Shown: piece by piece, positions 31,372-49,853 of the stretch
How the letters are laid out: the number at the start of each line of letters is the position of its first letter
Position numbering within the stretch: position 1 is the first letter of the stretch
Source: Methylophilus aquaticus
GTDB lineage: Bacteria > Pseudomonadota > Gammaproteobacteria > Burkholderiales > Methylophilaceae
DNA length: 64,000 bases
Assembly: GCF_030769565.1 (NCBI RefSeq)
Contig: NZ_JAVCAP010000001.1
Coordinates: 276,161 to 340,160, forward strand
Direction: 5' to 3'
The notes under the pieces: generated by a model
What the model saw: only the letters and a program-made list of their open reading frames with translations
The model's database searches: none
Told to the model about the DNA's origin: nothing
Program-made: the position numbers and the translations under genes

Positions 31372-31441
31372 TAACCGTCCGCTTGGTCACGGTCAGATAT
31401 ATTCATTAATTATATTTATCAATTGAATTAATATAATCAAT

Positions 31442-31470
31442 TTTACATATTGTTTGTGTGTGTCTACAAT
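31442..31470 (+). promoter_or_regulatory. sigma-70 promoter of ahpC
   Basis: TTTACA (31442-31447) and TACAAT (31465-31470) are near-consensus hexamers with a 17-base spacer. The start codon is 75 bases downstream. The 60 bases before the -35 box are very AT-rich with repeated ATTAAT/ATATAAT elements, where an OxyR-type regulator could bind, but no full OxyR consensus is readable. Confidence 0.7.
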
Positions 31471-31544
31471 GCATCCATTCGCTGATTACACGCAGCCAAT
31501 TTTAAGTTAACCCGTGTTTTTAAATCACTCTAAAGGAGAACTAT

Positions 31545-32108
31545 ATGTCATTGATTAATACACAAGTACAACCGTTTAAAGCGCAGGCATTTCATAACGG
31601 CAAATTTATCGAAGTATCCGACGAAAGTTTGAAAGGCAAGTGGTCAGTGTTGATTTTCATGCCAGCTGCATTTACTTTCAACTGCCCAACCGAAGTGGAA
31701 GATGCCGCTGATAACTATGCCGAGTTTCAGAAAGCCGGCGCTGAAGTGTATATCGTGACCACTGATACACACTTCTCACACAAAGTTTGGCACGAGACTT
31801 CACCGGCTGTTGGTAAAGCCAAGTTCCCGCTGGTTGGTGACCCAACCCACGTGTTGACCAATGCATTTGGTGTGCACATTCCTGAAGAAGGCTTGGCATT
31901 GCGCGGTACTTTCGTGATCAACCCTGATGGCGTGATCAAAACTGTTGAAGTGCACAGCAACGAAATTGCCCGTGATGTGAAAGAAACATTGCGCAAATTG
32001 AAAGCGGCACAATACACCGCTGCCAACCCAGGTCAGGTGTGCCCGGCCAAGTGGAACGAAGGCGCGAAAACATTGACGCCTTCATTGGATCTGGTAGGCA
32101 AGATCTAA
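31545..32108 (+). CDS. ahpC: alkyl hydroperoxide reductase subunit C
   Basis: A typical 2-Cys peroxiredoxin that reduces hydrogen peroxide and organic hydroperoxides with electrons from AhpF. The peroxidatic cysteine is Cys47 in AAFTFNCPTEVED and the resolving cysteine is Cys166 in NPGQVCPAKWNEG; the 187-residue length and the C-terminal SLDLVGKI match E. coli AhpC. AAAGGAG precedes the ATG at good spacing. ahpF follows after a structured intergenic region of 192 bases. Confidence 0.98.
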   Translation: MSLINTQVQPFKAQAFHNGKFIEVSDESLKGKWSVLIFMPAAFTFNCPTEVEDAADNYAEFQKAGAEVYIVTTDTHFSHKVWHETSPAVGKAKFPLVGDPTHVLTNAFGVHIPEEGLALRGTFVINPDGVIKTVEVHSNEIARDVKETLRKLKAAQYTAANPGQVCPAKWNEGAKTLTPSLDLVGKI

Positions 32109-32158
32109 GTGGACTGTGCGGACTGAGGTTCAAAAGACTGAAGCCTGAAACAGCCTCG

Positions 32159-32227
32159 CCCCTGAAATGTGTCATCTGTATTTCAGGGGGCTGAGGGGAG
32201 TGCATCCTCTGGTGTATTCCCCTCAGC
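32159..32227 (+). other. two adjacent hairpins between ahpC and ahpF
   Basis: Hairpin one pairs CCCCTGAAAT with ATTTCAGGGG around 11 bases (32159-32189). Hairpin two pairs GCTGAGGGGA with TCCCCTCAGC around 18 bases (32190-32227). Both are perfect ten-base stems placed back to back with no T run. They could slow exonucleases and set the ahpC to ahpF ratio, or be a REP-type element. Confidence 0.6.
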
Positions 32228-32300
32228 GAATCCCCCCAACGCATTTAAAACACCATACATTGGTGATGGGTGCTTGCACCCTCAAGAAACGGAGATTGAC

Positions 32301-33866
32301 ATGTTAGACGACACCTTAAAAGGACAACTGCAAACCTATCTGGGCATGCTGCGCCAACCAATTCAGCTGATTGCCAGCCTGGATGGCAGCGACAATGCGA
32401 CAGAAATGCGTACATTGCTGCAGGAGATTGCCAGTTTGTCTGACAAAGTAACGCTCGACGAAACCGGCGATGATGTACGCAAGCCTTCATTTGTGATTGC
32501 GCGTGAGGGCGAAACACACGGTGTACGTTTTGCAGCGATTCCGCTCGGGCATGAATTCACCTCGCTGGTGTTAGCGCTGTTATGGACAGGTGGCCATCCG
32601 CCCAAAGTCGAGCAGGACGTGCTGGACCAGATCAGAGCGCTGGAGCGTGATCTGAACTTTGAAGTGTACATGAGCTTGTCATGCCACAACTGTCCGGACG
32701 TGGTGCAGGCCACCACCCTGATGACGGTGTTTAACCCGCGCATCCAGACGACCGTGATTGATGGCGCGCTGTTTCAGGATGAAGTAAACGATCGCAATAT
32801 CATGGCAGTGCCCGCCACCTTCATGAACGGCGAAATGTTTGCCTCTGGCCGCATGCTGGTAGAAGAAATTCTGGCCAAGGTAGATACGGGTGTTATCGCC
32901 AAGGAAGCTGAAAAGCTCAATGCCAAAGCCCCATATGATGTATTGGTTGTTGGTGGCGGACCTGCGGGTGCGGCTGCAGCGATTTATGCGGCGCGCAAAG
33001 GCATCCGTACTGGCATTGTCGCCGAGCGTTTTGGTGGCCAGGTGAACGACACACTGGCGATTGAAAACTTCATTTCAGTCAAAGAAACCGATGGTCCGAA
33101 ACTGGTCATGGCGCTCGAAGAGCACGTCAAAAGCTATGATGTGGATATCATGCCGTTGCAGCGTGCGGCAGGCTTGGCTGAACCAGAGAAAGCGGACAAT
33201 AAGCATGCTGGATTGATTGAAGTGAAGCTGGAAAGTGGCGCGACCTTACGCAGCAAGTCTGTGATACTGGCGACTGGTGCACGCTGGCGCAACCTGAATG
33301 TGCCCGGTGAAGAGGCCTACAAAAACAAAGGCGTGGCGTATTGTCCGCACTGCGACGGCCCCTTGTTTAAAGGCAAGCATGTGGCAGTGGTTGGTGGTGG
33401 TAACTCGGGCGTTGAAGCTGCGATTGACCTGGCAGGTGTGGTTGGCCATGTCACCTTGTTGCAGTTCGATACTGAACTGAAAGCTGATGCCGTATTGCAA
33501 CGTAAGCTGCGCACACTGGAAAATGTAACCATTTTAACCAGCGCACAAACCACTGAAGTCACGGGTGATGGTACCCGCGTCAATGGGCTAACCTATACTG
33601 ACCGTGTGACGGGTGAAAGCAAGCATATTGCACTGGAAGGTGTATTTATCCAGATTGGCCTTGTCCCCAACAGTGACTGGTTAAAAGGCACGCTTAATTT
33701 GAGCAAGTATGGCGAAATTGAGATTAACAGCCATAATGCGACCTCGCTGCCAGGCGTGTTTGCTGCCGGGGATGTGACGACAGTGCCTTACAAGCAAATC
33801 ATTATTGCGATGGGGGAAGGTGCCAATGCCGCTTTAGGTGCATTTGATTATTTGATTAGGCAATAA
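32301..33866 (+). CDS. ahpF: alkyl hydroperoxide reductase subunit F
   Basis: The flavoprotein that passes electrons from NADH to AhpC. The start at 32301 (GGAG upstream) gives 521 residues, the E. coli length; an upstream in-frame extension overlaps the hairpins and is not used. Domains: an N-terminal tandem thioredoxin fold with the redox pair in [11 protein letters not shown], an FAD domain starting [20 protein letters not shown], the thioredoxin-reductase-like dithiol CPHCDGP, and an NAD domain with [19 protein letters not shown]. Together with AhpC it forms a complete peroxide scavenging pair, useful where methanol oxidation generates reactive oxygen. Confidence 0.97.
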
Positions 33867-43636: not shown

Positions 43637-44917
43637 ATGACCCCCTATTTAATGCGCCAGACGGCGGTATTACTCACCCAGTTGCTGACTTTTGAAAGTC
43701 CTGCCGATGCCGTGGTGGGCGCCTATTTCAGAGAGCATCGCGATTTGGGCACCAAAGACCGCGCATGGATCGCTGAAACCGCTTATGGCATATTGCGCCG
43801 CTATCGCTATTTAAGCGAAATCACTGCCAATAACGATGAAGACGCGACCGAAGATGCCCGTAAACTGATTTTGGCCTGGTTGATGAAAATTGAAGGCAAA
43901 AGCATCCGCGATCTCGAAGAGGTGCTCGATGAGCGGCAAAAGGAATGGGCCGTCGCCATTAAAAGCAAAAACAGTGAAGGCCTGAGCCCCGCAGCGCTGG
44001 CTGATGTGCGTGACTGGTTCTGGGAAAAGCTGGTCGCACAATATGGCGAAGCCGAAGCCATGACCATCTGCCGCAGCATGTTCGAGCAAGCCAGCCTCGA
44101 TTTGCGCGTCAATACCATCAAAGCCAGTCGCGAAGATGTACTCACCCGCATGCTGGCCGAAAACACCGTCAAAGACAACGTGATTGCTGTCACCCCATAC
44201 TCGCCTTTGGGTATTCGTATGGGCGCACGCCTCAATATCAGCAAACATATATTGTTTACCGAAGGCCAGATTGAAGTGCAGGATGAAGGTAGCCAGTTGC
44301 TCAGCTACCTGGTCGCCCCCAAACGCGGGCAAATGGTGGCCGACCTCTGTGCAGGTGCGGGCGGCAAAACCCTTGCACTGGGTGCATTGATGAAGAACAC
44401 GGGTCGCTTGTACGCTTTTGATGTCTCTGAAAAGCGCCTGAATAACCTGGGCAAACGCCTGAAACGCTCCGGCCTTTCCAACCTGCAAGCGCAAGTGATC
44501 AATAACGAAAACGACCTCAAACTCAAGCGCCTCAACGGCAAATTTGACCGTGTTCTGGTCGATGCCCCTTGCAGTGGTTTGGGCACATTAAGAAGAAACC
44601 CCGATTTAAAATGGCGTCAAACCGAGCAGGATGTGACCGAACTCAATGTCAAACAAAGCAATATCCTCGCCCGCGCCGCAAAATTATGCAAAGCCGGTGG
44701 CCGCGTGGTCTACGCCACTTGCAGTCTGTTGCGTGATGAAAATGAAGCGATTGCCGAAGCCTTTATGGCAGCGCATCCCGAGTTTAAACTCATCCCCGCA
44801 CACGAAGTGCTGGCGCAGCAGCATATCGAGCTGAATACCGGTGACTATTTGAAGTTACTGCCACATCTGCATGGTACGGATGGCTTTTTTGCAGCGGTGT
44901 TTGAAAAGGCGGCTTAA
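43637..44917 (+). CDS. RsmB/NOP2-family RNA cytosine-5 methyltransferase
   Basis: A 426-residue SAM-dependent m5C methyltransferase. An N-terminal helical RNA-binding region (MRQTAVLLTQLLTFESPADAVVGAYFREH...) leads into the catalytic domain: SAM motif VADLCAGAGGKTLALGALM, the first cysteine in VDAPCSGLGTLRRNPDLKW and the catalytic cysteine in YATCSLLRDENEAI. It resembles RsmB (16S rRNA C967) most, but the N-terminal part is not an obvious NusB domain, so another rRNA or tRNA target is possible. Monocistronic, 30 bases after the DUF3108 pair. Confidence 0.9.
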   Translation: MTPYLMRQTAVLLTQLLTFESPADAVVGAYFREHRDLGTKDRAWIAETAYGILRRYRYLSEITANNDEDATEDARKLILAWLMKIEGKSIRDLEEVLDERQKEWAVAIKSKNSEGLSPAALADVRDWFWEKLVAQYGEAEAMTICRSMFEQASLDLRVNTIKASREDVLTRMLAENTVKDNVIAVTPYSPLGIRMGARLNISKHILFTEGQIEVQDEGSQLLSYLVAPKRGQMVADLCAGAGGKTLALGALMKNTGRLYAFDVSEKRLNNLGKRLKRSGLSNLQAQVINNENDLKLKRLNGKFDRVLVDAPCSGLGTLRRNPDLKWRQTEQDVTELNVKQSNILARAAKLCKAGGRVVYATCSLLRDENEAIAEAFMAAHPEFKLIPAHEVLAQQHIELNTGDYLKLLPHLHGTDGFFAAVFEKAA

Positions 44918-45043
44918 TGCGTAGTCATCACTGCTGAAAAGCATGAACCAGATTCAAGTAAAACAGCCCTCAAGAAGCAGCTTGATTACGGTCATACTGT
45001 GCACACGTTGTACAGATTAATCACCCAAATGAGGAGAAACACC

Positions 45044-45115
45044 ATGTGGACTAAACCAGCTGCTACAGAAATGCGTTTTGGCTTTGAAGTAACCATGTAC
45101 GTGATGAACAAATAA
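45044..45115 (+). CDS. pqqA: PQQ precursor peptide PqqA, orphan gene
   Basis: A 23-residue ribosomal peptide beginning MWTKPAATEMRFGFEVTMYV. The Glu15-Val-Thr-Met-Tyr19 segment is the E-x3-Y core whose glutamate and tyrosine are cross-linked by PqqE and become the PQQ cofactor of methanol dehydrogenase. A GAGGAG ribosome-binding site lies six bases upstream. The gene is followed directly by a strong terminator and by no pqqB, C, D or E, so it is an extra, monocistronic precursor gene. Several Methylophilaceae carry more than one pqqA; this copy could raise peptide dosage. Confidence 0.93.
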   Translation: MWTKPAATEMRFGFEVTMYVMNK

Positions 45116-45138
45116 TTTTAGCCTCGGCTAAGATGACT

Positions 45139-45165
45139 AAAACCCGACCGAGTGTCGGGTTTTTT
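45139..45165 (+). terminator. terminator of pqqA
   Basis: AAAACCCGAC pairs with GTCGGGTTTT around CGAGT and continues into T. It is 24 bases after the pqqA stop and shows the gene is a single-gene transcript. The following 150 bases up to 45321 hold nothing I can identify. Confidence 0.9.
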
Positions 45166-45321: not shown

Positions 45322-45963
45322 TCAGCCAATCGCCTTTTGAATCAACGGCACTAAATCTTGCGGTAGTTTAATCAAGCGCAAAGCGGCCTCTCTGCCTTTG
45401 GGAGACATCTTCAAATAAGATTTACGCAATATATCCACAAACTTGCCTTCTGAATATTCGGGGTGCATGCCTGCAAATTCGGTGAGGTCATGTTCTAAAA
45501 ACGCTAGCACAATCACATCTTCCAACGTTTGCATTTCAGGGTCACTGCTGAGATTCTCTTTATTGAGTAGCGCACACACTTTGCTGATGGTGGTTGCATC
45601 GTAGCCATGCGTGGTTAGCACTTGGGTGGCAATTTCTGCGTGATAGCTTTTGAGTTTGGTGCGCCAGGCTAAATAGCCGGGTTTGGTCATGGGGTAGTCG
45701 CTGCGTGGGATTTTCCAGCGTTGAATATGTTGGCTGCGCGCGGCGAGTTGCAATGCCTCTGAAGCGTCTGGTGCGTAGCGCGCAAGCATTTCGCTCATGC
45801 GGTGTGCGTAAACCAATGCTTTGGATTGCGCTGTGCCTTCGACCATGACGCTGGTTGGGTCTTGGCTATTGAGGGCGTCAAACGCGGCGAGGGCGGTATG
45901 AAAGCGTTGGGTGTTCATTTGCAGAGTGCTCATTTTGTGATGTGCTGCGGTGGGGTCTTGCAT
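45322..45963 (-). CDS. DUF4202 family protein
   Basis: A 213-residue soluble, helical protein. The pattern FHTALAAFDALNSQDP, VYAHRMSEMLARYAPDASEALQLAARSQHIQRWKIPRSDYP and YLAWRTKLKSYHAEIA is typical of DUF4202, a family with conserved His/Arg residues and an HD-like look but no assigned activity; QHIQRW is the most conserved part. Starts at 45963, 45933 and 45918 are possible; the first has AAGGG at long spacing, the last fits the conserved region best. It is a single gene between pqqA and a divergent symporter. Confidence 0.85.
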   Translation of the reverse strand: MQDPTAAHHKMSTLQMNTQRFHTALAAFDALNSQDPTSVMVEGTAQSKALVYAHRMSEMLARYAPDASEALQLAARSQHIQRWKIPRSDYPMTKPGYLAWRTKLKSYHAEIATQVLTTHGYDATTISKVCALLNKENLSSDPEMQTLEDVIVLAFLEHDLTEFAGMHPEYSEGKFVDILRKSYLKMSPKGREAALRLIKLPQDLVPLIQKAIG

Positions 45964-46112
45964 GACGAGTTTACCCTTTTAAGCTTAAGCAGAATGCTTG
46001 TGCTGCAAGCATGGCGGGGAGTTTAAATAGTACAACATTCTCTAAATTCTCTGTCTTGTGTCGCGAAAGTTACAGTATCATGATTCTAACCAATAGCACC
46101 CTGAAAATCCGC

Positions 46113-47330
46113 ATGTTCAAACTCCCCAGCCTCAATGCTCAAATCCTGATTGCTGCCATTGCCGGTGTTTTTCTAGGTTGGCTTGCACACGGAAGCGAGC
46201 ACGCATCATCCTTGTATGCTGCCAATCTGGTGGGCACGCTATTTATCGATTTACTCAAAATGGTGCTGGTGCCGCTGGTGTTTTGTTCGATTGTGGTGGG
46301 TATTGCCAATTTGCGGCAGCATCAGCAGATGCACAAGGTATGGCGGTATACCTTGCTGTTTTTTATCAGCAGCATGCTGGTGTCGATTGTGATTGGACTC
46401 ACGGCCAGCAACCTGTTTAAACCGGGTGCCGGGTTGCAAATGACGATGTTTGAAGGCGCGATTCAGCAGTTTGAGGCCAAGAGTATGTCGTTGCCAGATT
46501 TTTTTGCCAGCTTTTTGCATGGTTTGTTTATGAACCCGTTTAAGGCGCTGGCGGAGGGCAGTATTCTGGCTGTGGTGATGTTTGCCTTGTTGAGCGGGAT
46601 TGTGCTGGTGCTGGGCGGGGCGCAGTACGACGGTTTGCGTAGTCTGTTCGAACAGGGGCTGGCCTTGTGCATGCAGATGGTGGGGTGGGTGATGCGTCTG
46701 GCCCCGCTGGGCGTGGGGGCGCTATTATTCAAGCTGGTGGCACAGCAGGATATTGCCATGTTGCAAGTGCTCGGACGTTTTGCAGCCGTTGTGGTGGGCT
46801 CAACCCTTGTGCATGGCTTGGTGGTATTGCCGCTGGTATTGTGGCTGTTTACTCGGCGCAGTCCACTGTGGTTTTGGCGTGGTGCACGCGAGGCATTGGT
46901 CACTGCATTCGCCACCAGTTCGAGCAGTGCCACCTTGCCAGTGACTTTGCGCTGTGCCACGCAACATTTGCACGTCAAGCCTGAAATTGCCGGGTTTGTG
47001 CTGCCGCTGGGGGCGACGATTAATATGGATGGCACCGCGCTATACGAAGCCGCCGCTGCTTTATTTATTGCGCAGCTCGCCGGGGTGGACTTGAATCTGG
47101 CCCAGCAACTGGTGGTGTGTTTTACCGCGATGATTGCTGGCATGGGTGCGCCCGGCATTCCCAGTGCCGGCATGGTGACCATGGTGATGGTGCTGCAAAG
47201 TGTGGGCTTGCCTGCAGAGGCGATTGCCATTCTATTGCCCGTGGACCGCCTGCTGGACACCTTGCGTACGACGGTGAATGTCGAGGGTGATATGGTAGGC
47301 AGTTTAGTCGTACAAAAAATGATTTCCTGA
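46113..47330 (+). CDS. dicarboxylate/amino acid:cation symporter (DAACS family)
   Basis: An inner-membrane transporter of 405 residues that takes up C4-dicarboxylates or glutamate with Na+ or H+. The hallmark serine-rich hairpin is TAFATSSSSATLPVTL and the substrate/ion site is PLGATINMDGTALYEA; a second hairpin contains GAPGIPSAGMV. Eight helices and two re-entrant loops fit the GltPh fold. The N-terminus is uncertain: ATG codons at 46080 and 46011 are also in frame and none has a good ribosome-binding site; MFKLPSLNAQ is the likeliest beginning. Substrate cannot be told between DctA- and GltP-like. Confidence 0.9.
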   Translation: MFKLPSLNAQILIAAIAGVFLGWLAHGSEHASSLYAANLVGTLFIDLLKMVLVPLVFCSIVVGIANLRQHQQMHKVWRYTLLFFISSMLVSIVIGLTASNLFKPGAGLQMTMFEGAIQQFEAKSMSLPDFFASFLHGLFMNPFKALAEGSILAVVMFALLSGIVLVLGGAQYDGLRSLFEQGLALCMQMVGWVMRLAPLGVGALLFKLVAQQDIAMLQVLGRFAAVVVGSTLVHGLVVLPLVLWLFTRRSPLWFWRGAREALVTAFATSSSSATLPVTLRCATQHLHVKPEIAGFVLPLGATINMDGTALYEAAAALFIAQLAGVDLNLAQQLVVCFTAMIAGMGAPGIPSAGMVTMVMVLQSVGLPAEAIAILLPVDRLLDTLRTTVNVEGDMVGSLVVQKMIS

Positions 47331-47887: not shown

Positions 47888-47931
47888 CCGCCATTCGCAT
47901 TGGCCAGCATTCATTAAGCAACGATAATGTG

Positions 47932-48155
47932 CGACCCATCAAAAAAGGACCAGGGTCGGTTTTGCGCCGAGGTGCAATCTTGGAATGCCCCACATATGTG
48001 AAATCGGATAACGCAGCTTCAAGGCCGTTAATAATGATTGCAATGCCATTACCAACGTATTGTTGCAGTGGCAGGCTGATATTGTGAATCGTGATCGTGT
48101 CGATGACGGTGTTGACCAGACGTGCATCCACACTCGGCAACAGTCCTTGCAAGAC
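47932..48155 (-). pseudogene. decayed, internally deleted copy of ampD
   Basis: Read on the minus strand, this stretch encodes, in order, SVDARLVNTVIDTITIHNIS, then (after a frame change) LLTALKLRYPI, then GHSKIAPRRKTDPGPF. Each piece aligns with the intact AmpD encoded at 49305-49853 (NVDARPANTVIDMIVIHNIS, LLTALKLRYPI, GHSEIAPGRKTDPGPF). Relative to that gene about 250-260 bases from the middle are missing, removing the substrate-binding core, and at least one frameshift is present; the 5' end is also lost. DNA identity remains obvious by eye. It is a duplication remnant on the opposite side of the EamA exporter gene. Confidence 0.88.
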
Positions 48156-48393
48156 TTGGCCTGATCCTCTTGTCTGCTGGTTCTTGACCCCCCTGCCAAA
48201 GCAGCGTAGAGTACGTAGCCTTATGAACAAGCAATGCTCATCAACCTCAGTGATTGCGATGCATCGAACAGCATTGTGGCTAGTCGCCACATTGTGCTGC
48301 GGTTGCTGCTTGTCGTAAAACTCATGCAACCGCGGGCTCTCCGCGGTTGATCTTGTTGTCTTTCTCCGTAGAGCCCCACATTCAGGGCTCAAT
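48156..48393. other. gene-free stretch with two hairpins before the exporter gene
   Basis: About 240 bases without a supportable gene. CAACCGCGG pairs with CCGCGGTTG around GCTCT (about 48328-48350). GAGCCC pairs with GGGCTC (about 48372-48390) only three bases before the ATG of the EamA gene, where it could mask the ribosome-binding region. No known riboswitch class is recognised. Confidence 0.5.
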
Positions 48394-49308
48394 ATGAAAC
48401 ACGCCTCACTCCCGTATTCTGGTGCCTTACTGGTGCTGCTGTCCTCTATTGCCTTTTCGTCCAAAGCGATTATGGTCAAGCTGGCTTACGCTTATCACAT
48501 CGATGCGGCGACCCTGATAGCCTTGCGTATGGCGTTTGCAATACCGTTCTTCGTCGGGCTGGGCTGGTGGGCGATGCGAGACGGCGCCGCATTGCGCGTG
48601 ACAGCACGTGACTGGCTGACGCTAGTGGTATTGGCGGTGATTGGCGGGTATGGATCTATGTGGCTCAACTTTGAAGGCTTGCGCTATGTTTCAGCGGGTC
48701 TGGAGCGGGTGATTTTGTTTCTTTACCCGACGCTGGTGGTTGCCATGAGTGCGCTGTTTCTGCAGCACACCATTACACGTCGCGAGTGGTTTGCCATGCT
48801 GACAGGGTATGCCGGGGTCGTGCTTGTTGTTTGGCACGATATCGAGCTGTCTGGCCTGCAGTCTGCCGACACCTTGTATGGCGCCGGACTGGTGCTGTTA
48901 AGTGCCATTGTTTATGCGGCCTATTTACTGGTCAGTGGGCAGTTGATCCCCAAGCTGGGCGCCAGCCGCTTTACCGCGCTGAGCATGACGCTGGCGACCC
49001 TGGCGAGTGCCATGCACTTCAGCCTCAGCGAGCCAGTCAGTGCGTTGACGCATTTGCCGCCAGCGGTTTACGGCTTGGCCATGCTGATGGCTATCGTGGC
49101 AACGGTCTTGCCTTCTGTACTGATGAATTTGGGTATACAGCATCTGGGCAGCCGGCGTGCTGCGCTGATCAGTGCGATTGGGCCGGTAGCCACCATCGTC
49201 ATGGCCTATCTGTTTCTGGGCGAGCAGTTGTCCTGGATTCAGGCTGCGGGCACCTTGCTGGTACTGGCGGGTGTGGTCGCCGTCAGTGTGCAGGCCGAGT
49301 CGGCCTAA
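48394..49308 (+). CDS. EamA/DMT-superfamily exporter
   Basis: A 304-residue inner-membrane protein with ten hydrophobic helices in two EamA repeats (about 12-140 and 155-290); the second ends GEQLSWIQAAGTLLVLAGV, a standard motif. Such RhaT/YdcZ-like members export amino acids, metabolites or toxic analogues; the substrate cannot be read from sequence. The start codon comes right after a hairpin. The gene is flanked by the decayed ampD copy and the intact ampD, both on the minus strand, and its last four bases overlap ampD. This arrangement suggests it was inserted or duplicated together with ampD. Confidence 0.9.
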   Translation: MKHASLPYSGALLVLLSSIAFSSKAIMVKLAYAYHIDAATLIALRMAFAIPFFVGLGWWAMRDGAALRVTARDWLTLVVLAVIGGYGSMWLNFEGLRYVSAGLERVILFLYPTLVVAMSALFLQHTITRREWFAMLTGYAGVVLVVWHDIELSGLQSADTLYGAGLVLLSAIVYAAYLLVSGQLIPKLGASRFTALSMTLATLASAMHFSLSEPVSALTHLPPAVYGLAMLMAIVATVLPSVLMNLGIQHLGSRRAALISAIGPVATIVMAYLFLGEQLSWIQAAGTLLVLAGVVAVSVQAESA

Positions 49309-49853
49309 ACAATCCGTTCCCAGTCAAAAAAAGGGCCAGGGTCGGTTTTACGGCCTGGCGCAATCTCGGAGTGTCCGACAATATGCTTAATGGGGTAGCG
49401 CAGTTTTAACGCCGTTAATAAGGTTTGCAGTGTCAGGTATTGCACCTCGGTAAAGGCTTCAACGTCGCTGCCTTCCAGTTCTATGCCAATCGAGAAGTCA
49501 TTGCAGCGTTCACGCCCCTGCCAGCTGGAAAGCCCGGCATGCCAGGCGCGTTGGGCACAGGCTGCAAACTGAATGAGTTCGCCATCCCGCCGAATCAAAA
49601 AGTGGGAGGATACTTTGAGATGTGCAATTTCCGCATAATAGGGGTGTTCTGCGGGATCCAGTTGATTGGTAAACAGTGCCATAATGCCATTGCCACCATA
49701 GTGTTGCGGTGGCAGGCTGATATTGTGAATCACGATCATGTCGATGACGGTGTTGGCCGGACGCGCATCTACATTCGGAGAAAGTACCTGAAGGCACGGC
49801 TGCGCAAAGCCATCGTCATCAATCATCAGTTTGCTGGAAAATCTGTCAGACAT
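49305..49853 (-). CDS. ampD: 1,6-anhydro-N-acetylmuramyl-L-alanine amidase AmpD
   Basis: A cytoplasmic zinc amidase that splits anhydroMurNAc-peptides in cell-wall recycling and so lowers the signal for AmpC beta-lactamase induction. The 182-residue protein has zinc ligands His43 (VIHNISLPP), His161 and Asp171 (GHSEIAPGRKTDPGP), and the catalytic Glu in SIGIELEG. It has no signal peptide, which separates it from AmiD. Its substrate arises through lytic transglycosylases such as MltA, and its product goes to AnmK; both are encoded in this window. The end overlaps the EamA gene by four bases. Confidence 0.96.
   Translation of the reverse strand: MSDRFSSKLMIDDDGFAQPCLQVLSPNVDARPANTVIDMIVIHNISLPPQHYGGNGIMALFTNQLDPAEHPYYAEIAHLKVSSHFLIRRDGELIQFAACAQRAWHAGLSSWQGRERCNDFSIGIELEGSDVEAFTEVQYLTLQTLLTALKLRYPIKHIVGHSEIAPGRKTDPGPFFDWERIV

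Follow-up and report, generated by a model that had tools for sequence, protein, structure and literature searches.

The short pqqA gene in the stretch of Methylophilus aquaticus DNA analysed here (the window, 64,000 nucleotides) most likely serves as a dosage unit within a PQQ regulon whose genes are dispersed. In our judgement it is probably one of many scattered units that together supply PqqA, the precursor peptide, and that are controlled jointly with pqqBCDE through a shared palindrome. PQQ is the cofactor of methanol dehydrogenase, and how its synthesis is regulated has been called unclear (PMC9851590). An operator that recurs before pqqA, pqqB and probably the importer gene pqqU across the family, together with a candidate regulator, would make that regulation testable and provide a handle for PQQ production. 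It would also suggest that the gene for a substrate peptide can move out of its operon and increase in number without, apparently, escaping the operon's control.

The window gene and its siblings

The gene, its parts and its neighbours are as follows.

45044..45115, + strand: pqqA, PQQ precursor peptide of 23 residues (Pfam PqqA E 6e-11; genome copies)
45031..45036, + strand: ribosome-binding site GAGGAG, 7 nt 5' of the pqqA ATG (sequence reading)
45139..45165, + strand: intrinsic terminator of pqqA (10-bp stem, 5-nt loop, T run)
44993..44998, + strand: inferred -10-like hexamer CATACT, kept in related copies (inference from aligned copies)
44931..44947, + strand: operator-like site CTGCTGAAAAGCATGAA, 4 mismatches from CTCATGANAATCATGAG (same position in sibling copies)
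43637..44917, + strand: rsmB, unrelated 5' neighbour (Pfam/NCBIfam)
45322..45963, - strand: DUF4202 gene, unrelated 3' neighbour (Pfam)
46011..47330, + strand: SDF-family (DctA/GltP-like; dicarboxylate symporter) transporter gene, unrelated to pqqA (profile matches)

The original prediction, made from the letters of the window, described a complete PqqA with its own ribosome-binding site and terminator, among unrelated genes and with no pqqBCDE beside it, and the follow-up agrees on every one of these points. The reading frame translates to MWTKPAATEMRFGFEVTMYVMNK* and matches the PqqA profile (PF08042) along its whole length (positions 1-19 of 19; 42.4 bits, cut-off 21.1). The Glu-x3-Tyr core, the two residues that PqqE cross-links, is present as E-VTM-Y. 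The terminator begins 24 bases past the stop codon and consists of the AAAACCCGAC stem, a CGAGT loop and the GTCGGGTTTT stem followed by T, while a sigma-70 promoter scan at the gene returned no consensus pair. By their profile matches the flanking genes are unrelated, and the pqqBCDE cluster lies on another contig (C25). Elsewhere in the window, the minus-strand reading frame at 47900-48210 looks like a degenerate version of the AmpD-like amidase gene (49305-49853), with which it has the strings LLTALKLRYPI and KTDPGPF in common.

A search of the genome (2.96 Mb) gave eight PqqA matches, a count from an assembly of 45 contigs from which one more copy could be missing. Seven of the eight genes, the window copy included, encode an identical peptide, and all are free-standing. 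The eighth pqqA-like gene (G000:C4:12357; L011:12324-12413, minus strand) encodes the diverged peptide MWAKPAATEMRFGLEATLYLMNKSCALRE with six extra C-terminal residues; it has no visible ribosome-binding site, retains a recognisable operator remnant with three mismatches and looks like a decayed copy. The idea of an orphan, extra copy that accompanies a normal operon thus has to be given up: every PqqA gene in this genome is free-standing and none adjoins pqqBCDE. Such multiplicity is a family trait, with 3-10 pqqA matches in each of the 37 Methylophilaceae genomes searched and 0-3 in other families of the order. That Methylophilaceae carry multiple pqqA genes, and that the copies can differ in their responses, has been published; PMC4109929 reports 3 to 12 scattered pqqA copies, with the other pqq genes present as one set.

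Among 59 pqqA copies from eleven genomes of the genus, codon differences from the consensus comprise 189 synonymous changes and a single nonsynonymous one, although nonsynonymous changes make up 160 of the 198 single changes that could occur. This excess argues against a chance reading frame, and the copies are under purifying selection. Most are also closed off individually: a terminator lies within 110 nt of 55 of the 59, as against 94 of 2000 random pieces of the window.

The pqqA-less operon and the shared palindrome

The genome search that the original prediction proposed found, besides the seven identical peptides and the decayed eighth, a single pqqBCDE cluster, with pqqB, pqqC, pqqD and pqqE in order (pqqE at 31432-32469, above cut-off) and no pqqA. 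A genome lacking pqqBCDE altogether, which would have refuted the prediction, is thus not what was observed. Since no pqqA gene adjoins this cluster, the dispersed copies are the sole source of precursor that was found. What appears to connect the two is a 17-bp palindrome, CTCATGANAATCATGAG, which emerged from the alignment of upstream regions and stands in the pqqA promoters of many genera as well as before pqqB. Counting sites with up to three mismatches, 71 of 119 distinct pqqA upstream regions have one, against 13 of 5000 background windows (Fisher p about 1e-113, an inflated value, since the related sequences are not independent of each other). In nearly all of the copies that bear it, the palindrome starts about 110-127 nt before the pqqA start codon. 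Each class of pqqA locus keeps its own left half or variant of the operator across species, and at the two-copy pqqA locus the copy on one side has no clear palindrome (five mismatches in all species).

Given that the palindrome was first recognised in the very pqqA upstream regions that were later counted, the results for pqqB and for whole genomes are the more independent tests. First, the palindrome (at most three mismatches) lies within 420 nt upstream of pqqB at 36 of 39 loci. Second, this genome has just four sites that deviate by two mismatches or fewer, in the promoters of three pqqA genes and of pqqB; of the nine three-mismatch sites, only one is intergenic and points at a nearby gene. 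Third, over 80 sites with at most one mismatch were found in 61 genomes, against one for the reversed pattern; they are mostly next to pqqA or pqqB and almost wholly limited to genomes that carry pqq genes. A wider regulon defined by the shorter string AAAATCATGA was considered and rejected: it has 29 sites in the genome, and nearly all of those away from pqqA are intragenic or overlie start codons. In several relatives (L204, L207, L244, L247 and L251) the palindrome also stands 5' of a gene for a glycine-zipper protein, which in some of them is divergent from a YHS/pentapeptide-repeat or PhoX-like gene. No usable match to the operator sequence came out of a literature search, and a shared palindrome that ties most pqqA copies to pqqB is apparently new.

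The arrangement in relatives hints at how the operon came to lack its first gene. Most other genera, like sister species within the genus, have the order palindrome, pqqA, pqqB. In the clade that includes this genome (15 genomes), pqqA is missing before pqqB and the palindrome is kept, in 13 of them with zero mismatches. The simplest reading of these sequences is that the operon of this clade lost pqqA and kept its control site. Two loci in other Methylophilaceae genera, L162 (G036) and L165 (G034), likewise have pqqB without a preceding pqqA and the palindrome CTCATGAAATCCATGAG about 100 nt upstream, which suggests that in these genera pqqA dropped out of the operon independently.

Control and origin of the window copy

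The operator-like site of the window copy has four mismatches, as against one and two in its siblings on contig C4 and two or three in the pqqA genes that other species have at this site. Both of its own changes fall in the right half, which is otherwise nearly invariant among close siblings. Four mismatches are reached in about 1% of random 180-nt windows, so the identity of this operator rests on its position and on the alignment with its siblings. As the weakest operator among close siblings it suggests weaker or divergent control of an unchanged product, and after such drift control would probably be looser than in the siblings. The original prediction had supposed that a free-standing gene could set peptide dosage or come under separate control. 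That supposition agrees with the evidence and with published work (PMC4109929; Ge et al. 2015, cited in PMC9851590). Its further suggestion, a signal different from that of the main operon, fares less well: a wholly different signal is improbable for a gene that carries a weakened version of the palindrome of its siblings and of pqqB.

The position of the window copy is itself variable. Of the 13 genomes of the genus with an identified rsmB, 5 (this genome, G004, G005, G007 and G011) have a pqqA unit in the gap between rsmB and the transporter gene, and in most of those without pqqA there the transporter gene directly follows rsmB. The window promoter and terminator are closer to those of the two C4 copies of the same genome than to same-site copies elsewhere, a resemblance that could reflect gene conversion or re-insertion. 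In a tree of window-type units six of the ten inner forks are unresolved, a signal too weak to separate one ancestral insertion followed by gene conversion from independent insertions. On either course, the window pqqA would have arisen at, or been retained in, this gap in a subset of species.

These observations bear on what the window copy does. It is conceivable, if somewhat doubtful, that the copies divide the work, each answering another signal, and that the window copy, whose operator has changed, is used under one particular condition. The constancy of each locus class's operator variant across species would agree with this, as would another methylotroph in which two of five pqqA copies are expressed far above the others; in Methylovorus MP688 the multiple pqqA genes differ in response and one dominates (Ge et al. 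2015, as cited in PMC9851590). Identical peptides and a common operator position speak against it, and occupancy of the rsmB-transporter site in only 5 of 13 genomes implies that a dedicated role is not general. That the window gene is merely a redundant duplicate in decay, with no separate function, we think unlikely. In favour of this are an operator more diverged than any other in its class, patchy occupancy of the site and the decay that one C4 copy has already undergone (longer C-terminus, no ribosome-binding site). Against it, the window gene has kept its peptide, its ribosome-binding site and its terminator intact, and the pqqA genes at this site in other species are intact as well. A regulatory RNA function of the short transcript, besides its coding for PqqA, is very improbable. 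Speaking for it, the transcript folds better than shuffles do (z -2.7), largely through the terminator hairpins; speaking against it, no Rfam family reaches threshold, and the upstream parts vary freely between locus classes while the peptide stays fixed, which points to a coding function.

Co-controlled dosage units, the reading that we prefer, could work as follows. Each pqqA unit would be a self-contained transcript with an upstream element, a promoter, the 23-codon gene and usually a terminator. The synthesis of each PQQ uses up one PqqA; numerous short, separately terminated pqqA transcripts would therefore yield far more precursor than the enzyme made from a single pqqBCDE transcript. 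With the leading pqqA lost from the operon in this Methylophilus clade, precursor and enzymes would be made in trans, and their coordination would most likely run through the palindromic operator, which stands about 115-125 nt before pqqA and roughly 170-260 nt before pqqB, and through a related site before pqqU.

A candidate regulator, the PQQ importer and known systems

The candidate for the DNA-binding protein is a LuxR-type response regulator that is paired with a histidine kinase, an assignment based on the genes that neighbour pqq genes in other families. Four genomes from outside the Methylophilaceae have the kinase gene beside pqq genes; in two of these a LuxR-type response regulator gene is visible after it, and in one a perfect palindrome is found between the kinase-regulator pair and pqqB. 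Kinase orthologs are present across the Methylophilaceae, in several genera roughly 30-50 kb from pqqB. Methylophilus and its close relatives have a shorter form of the kinase followed by the regulator gene, at a similar distance from pqqB in several genomes; the pair is found in this genome at C45:36053, and in Methylophilus it does not adjoin pqqB. Binding of the palindrome by this protein, the direction in which it would act and the presumed effect on dosage are all predictions from conservation and position. A paralogous kinase and response-regulator pair (L009:4628-6639; G000:C14) is a neighbour of the two-copy pqqA locus, at a distance of about 3 kb (2-4 kb).

The single three-mismatch site that is intergenic and points at a gene stands 62 nt upstream of one for a TonB-dependent receptor (G000:C12:18577-20742). 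The receptor's closest solved structures are 6v81 (E 2e-126) and 9c4o (E 1e-125), which represent the YncD/PQQ transporter, with the next at 2e-14; NCBIfam PqqU is its best family match, yet at 546 bits against a strict cut-off of 1200. Judged by these matches, the receptor is a PqqU ortholog. Upstream of pqqU, TTCATGAAAATACTGAG or a close variant is conserved in most genomes of the genus; its left half fits the palindrome, and its divergent right half fits less well. Common control of pqqU with the pqq genes through this related element is probable. More tentatively, one LuxR-type two-component system and one palindrome may, across the Methylophilaceae, control the pqqA copies, the pqqA-less pqqBCDE operon and pqqU, with pqqA copy number setting the ratio of substrate to enzyme. 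If so, PQQ synthesis and import would be coordinated although pqqA, pqqBCDE and pqqU are unlinked.

Several known systems resemble parts of this arrangement. The nearest is the multi-copy pqqA of other Methylophilaceae, likewise with 3-12 scattered copies and a single pqqBCDE (PMC4109929; Methylovorus MP688, PMC9851590); unlike the present case, those accounts, in the portions available, make no mention of a shared palindrome, a pqqA-less operon with retained operator, or a link to pqqU. In Methylosinus trichosporium OB3b pqqA also lies away from pqqBCDE and is transcribed far more strongly, about 40-fold above pqqB (PMC3615186), but this alphaproteobacterium has one orphan pqqA and no multi-copy family. 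The AgmR (PedR1/ErbR) regulon of Pseudomonas offers a precedent for the proposed control, AgmR being a LuxR-type activator of an unlinked PQQ operon (PMC12997753); there pqqA is inside the operon whereas here it is outside, and the candidate regulator here is characterised by its LuxR-type architecture. Finally, the importer is orthologous by sequence to PqqU, the TonB-dependent PQQ importer of PMC12124388. Because the two are not syntenic, that study infers that the importer is as a rule regulated separately from the pqq operon, whereas the related element upstream of pqqU here suggests co-regulation.
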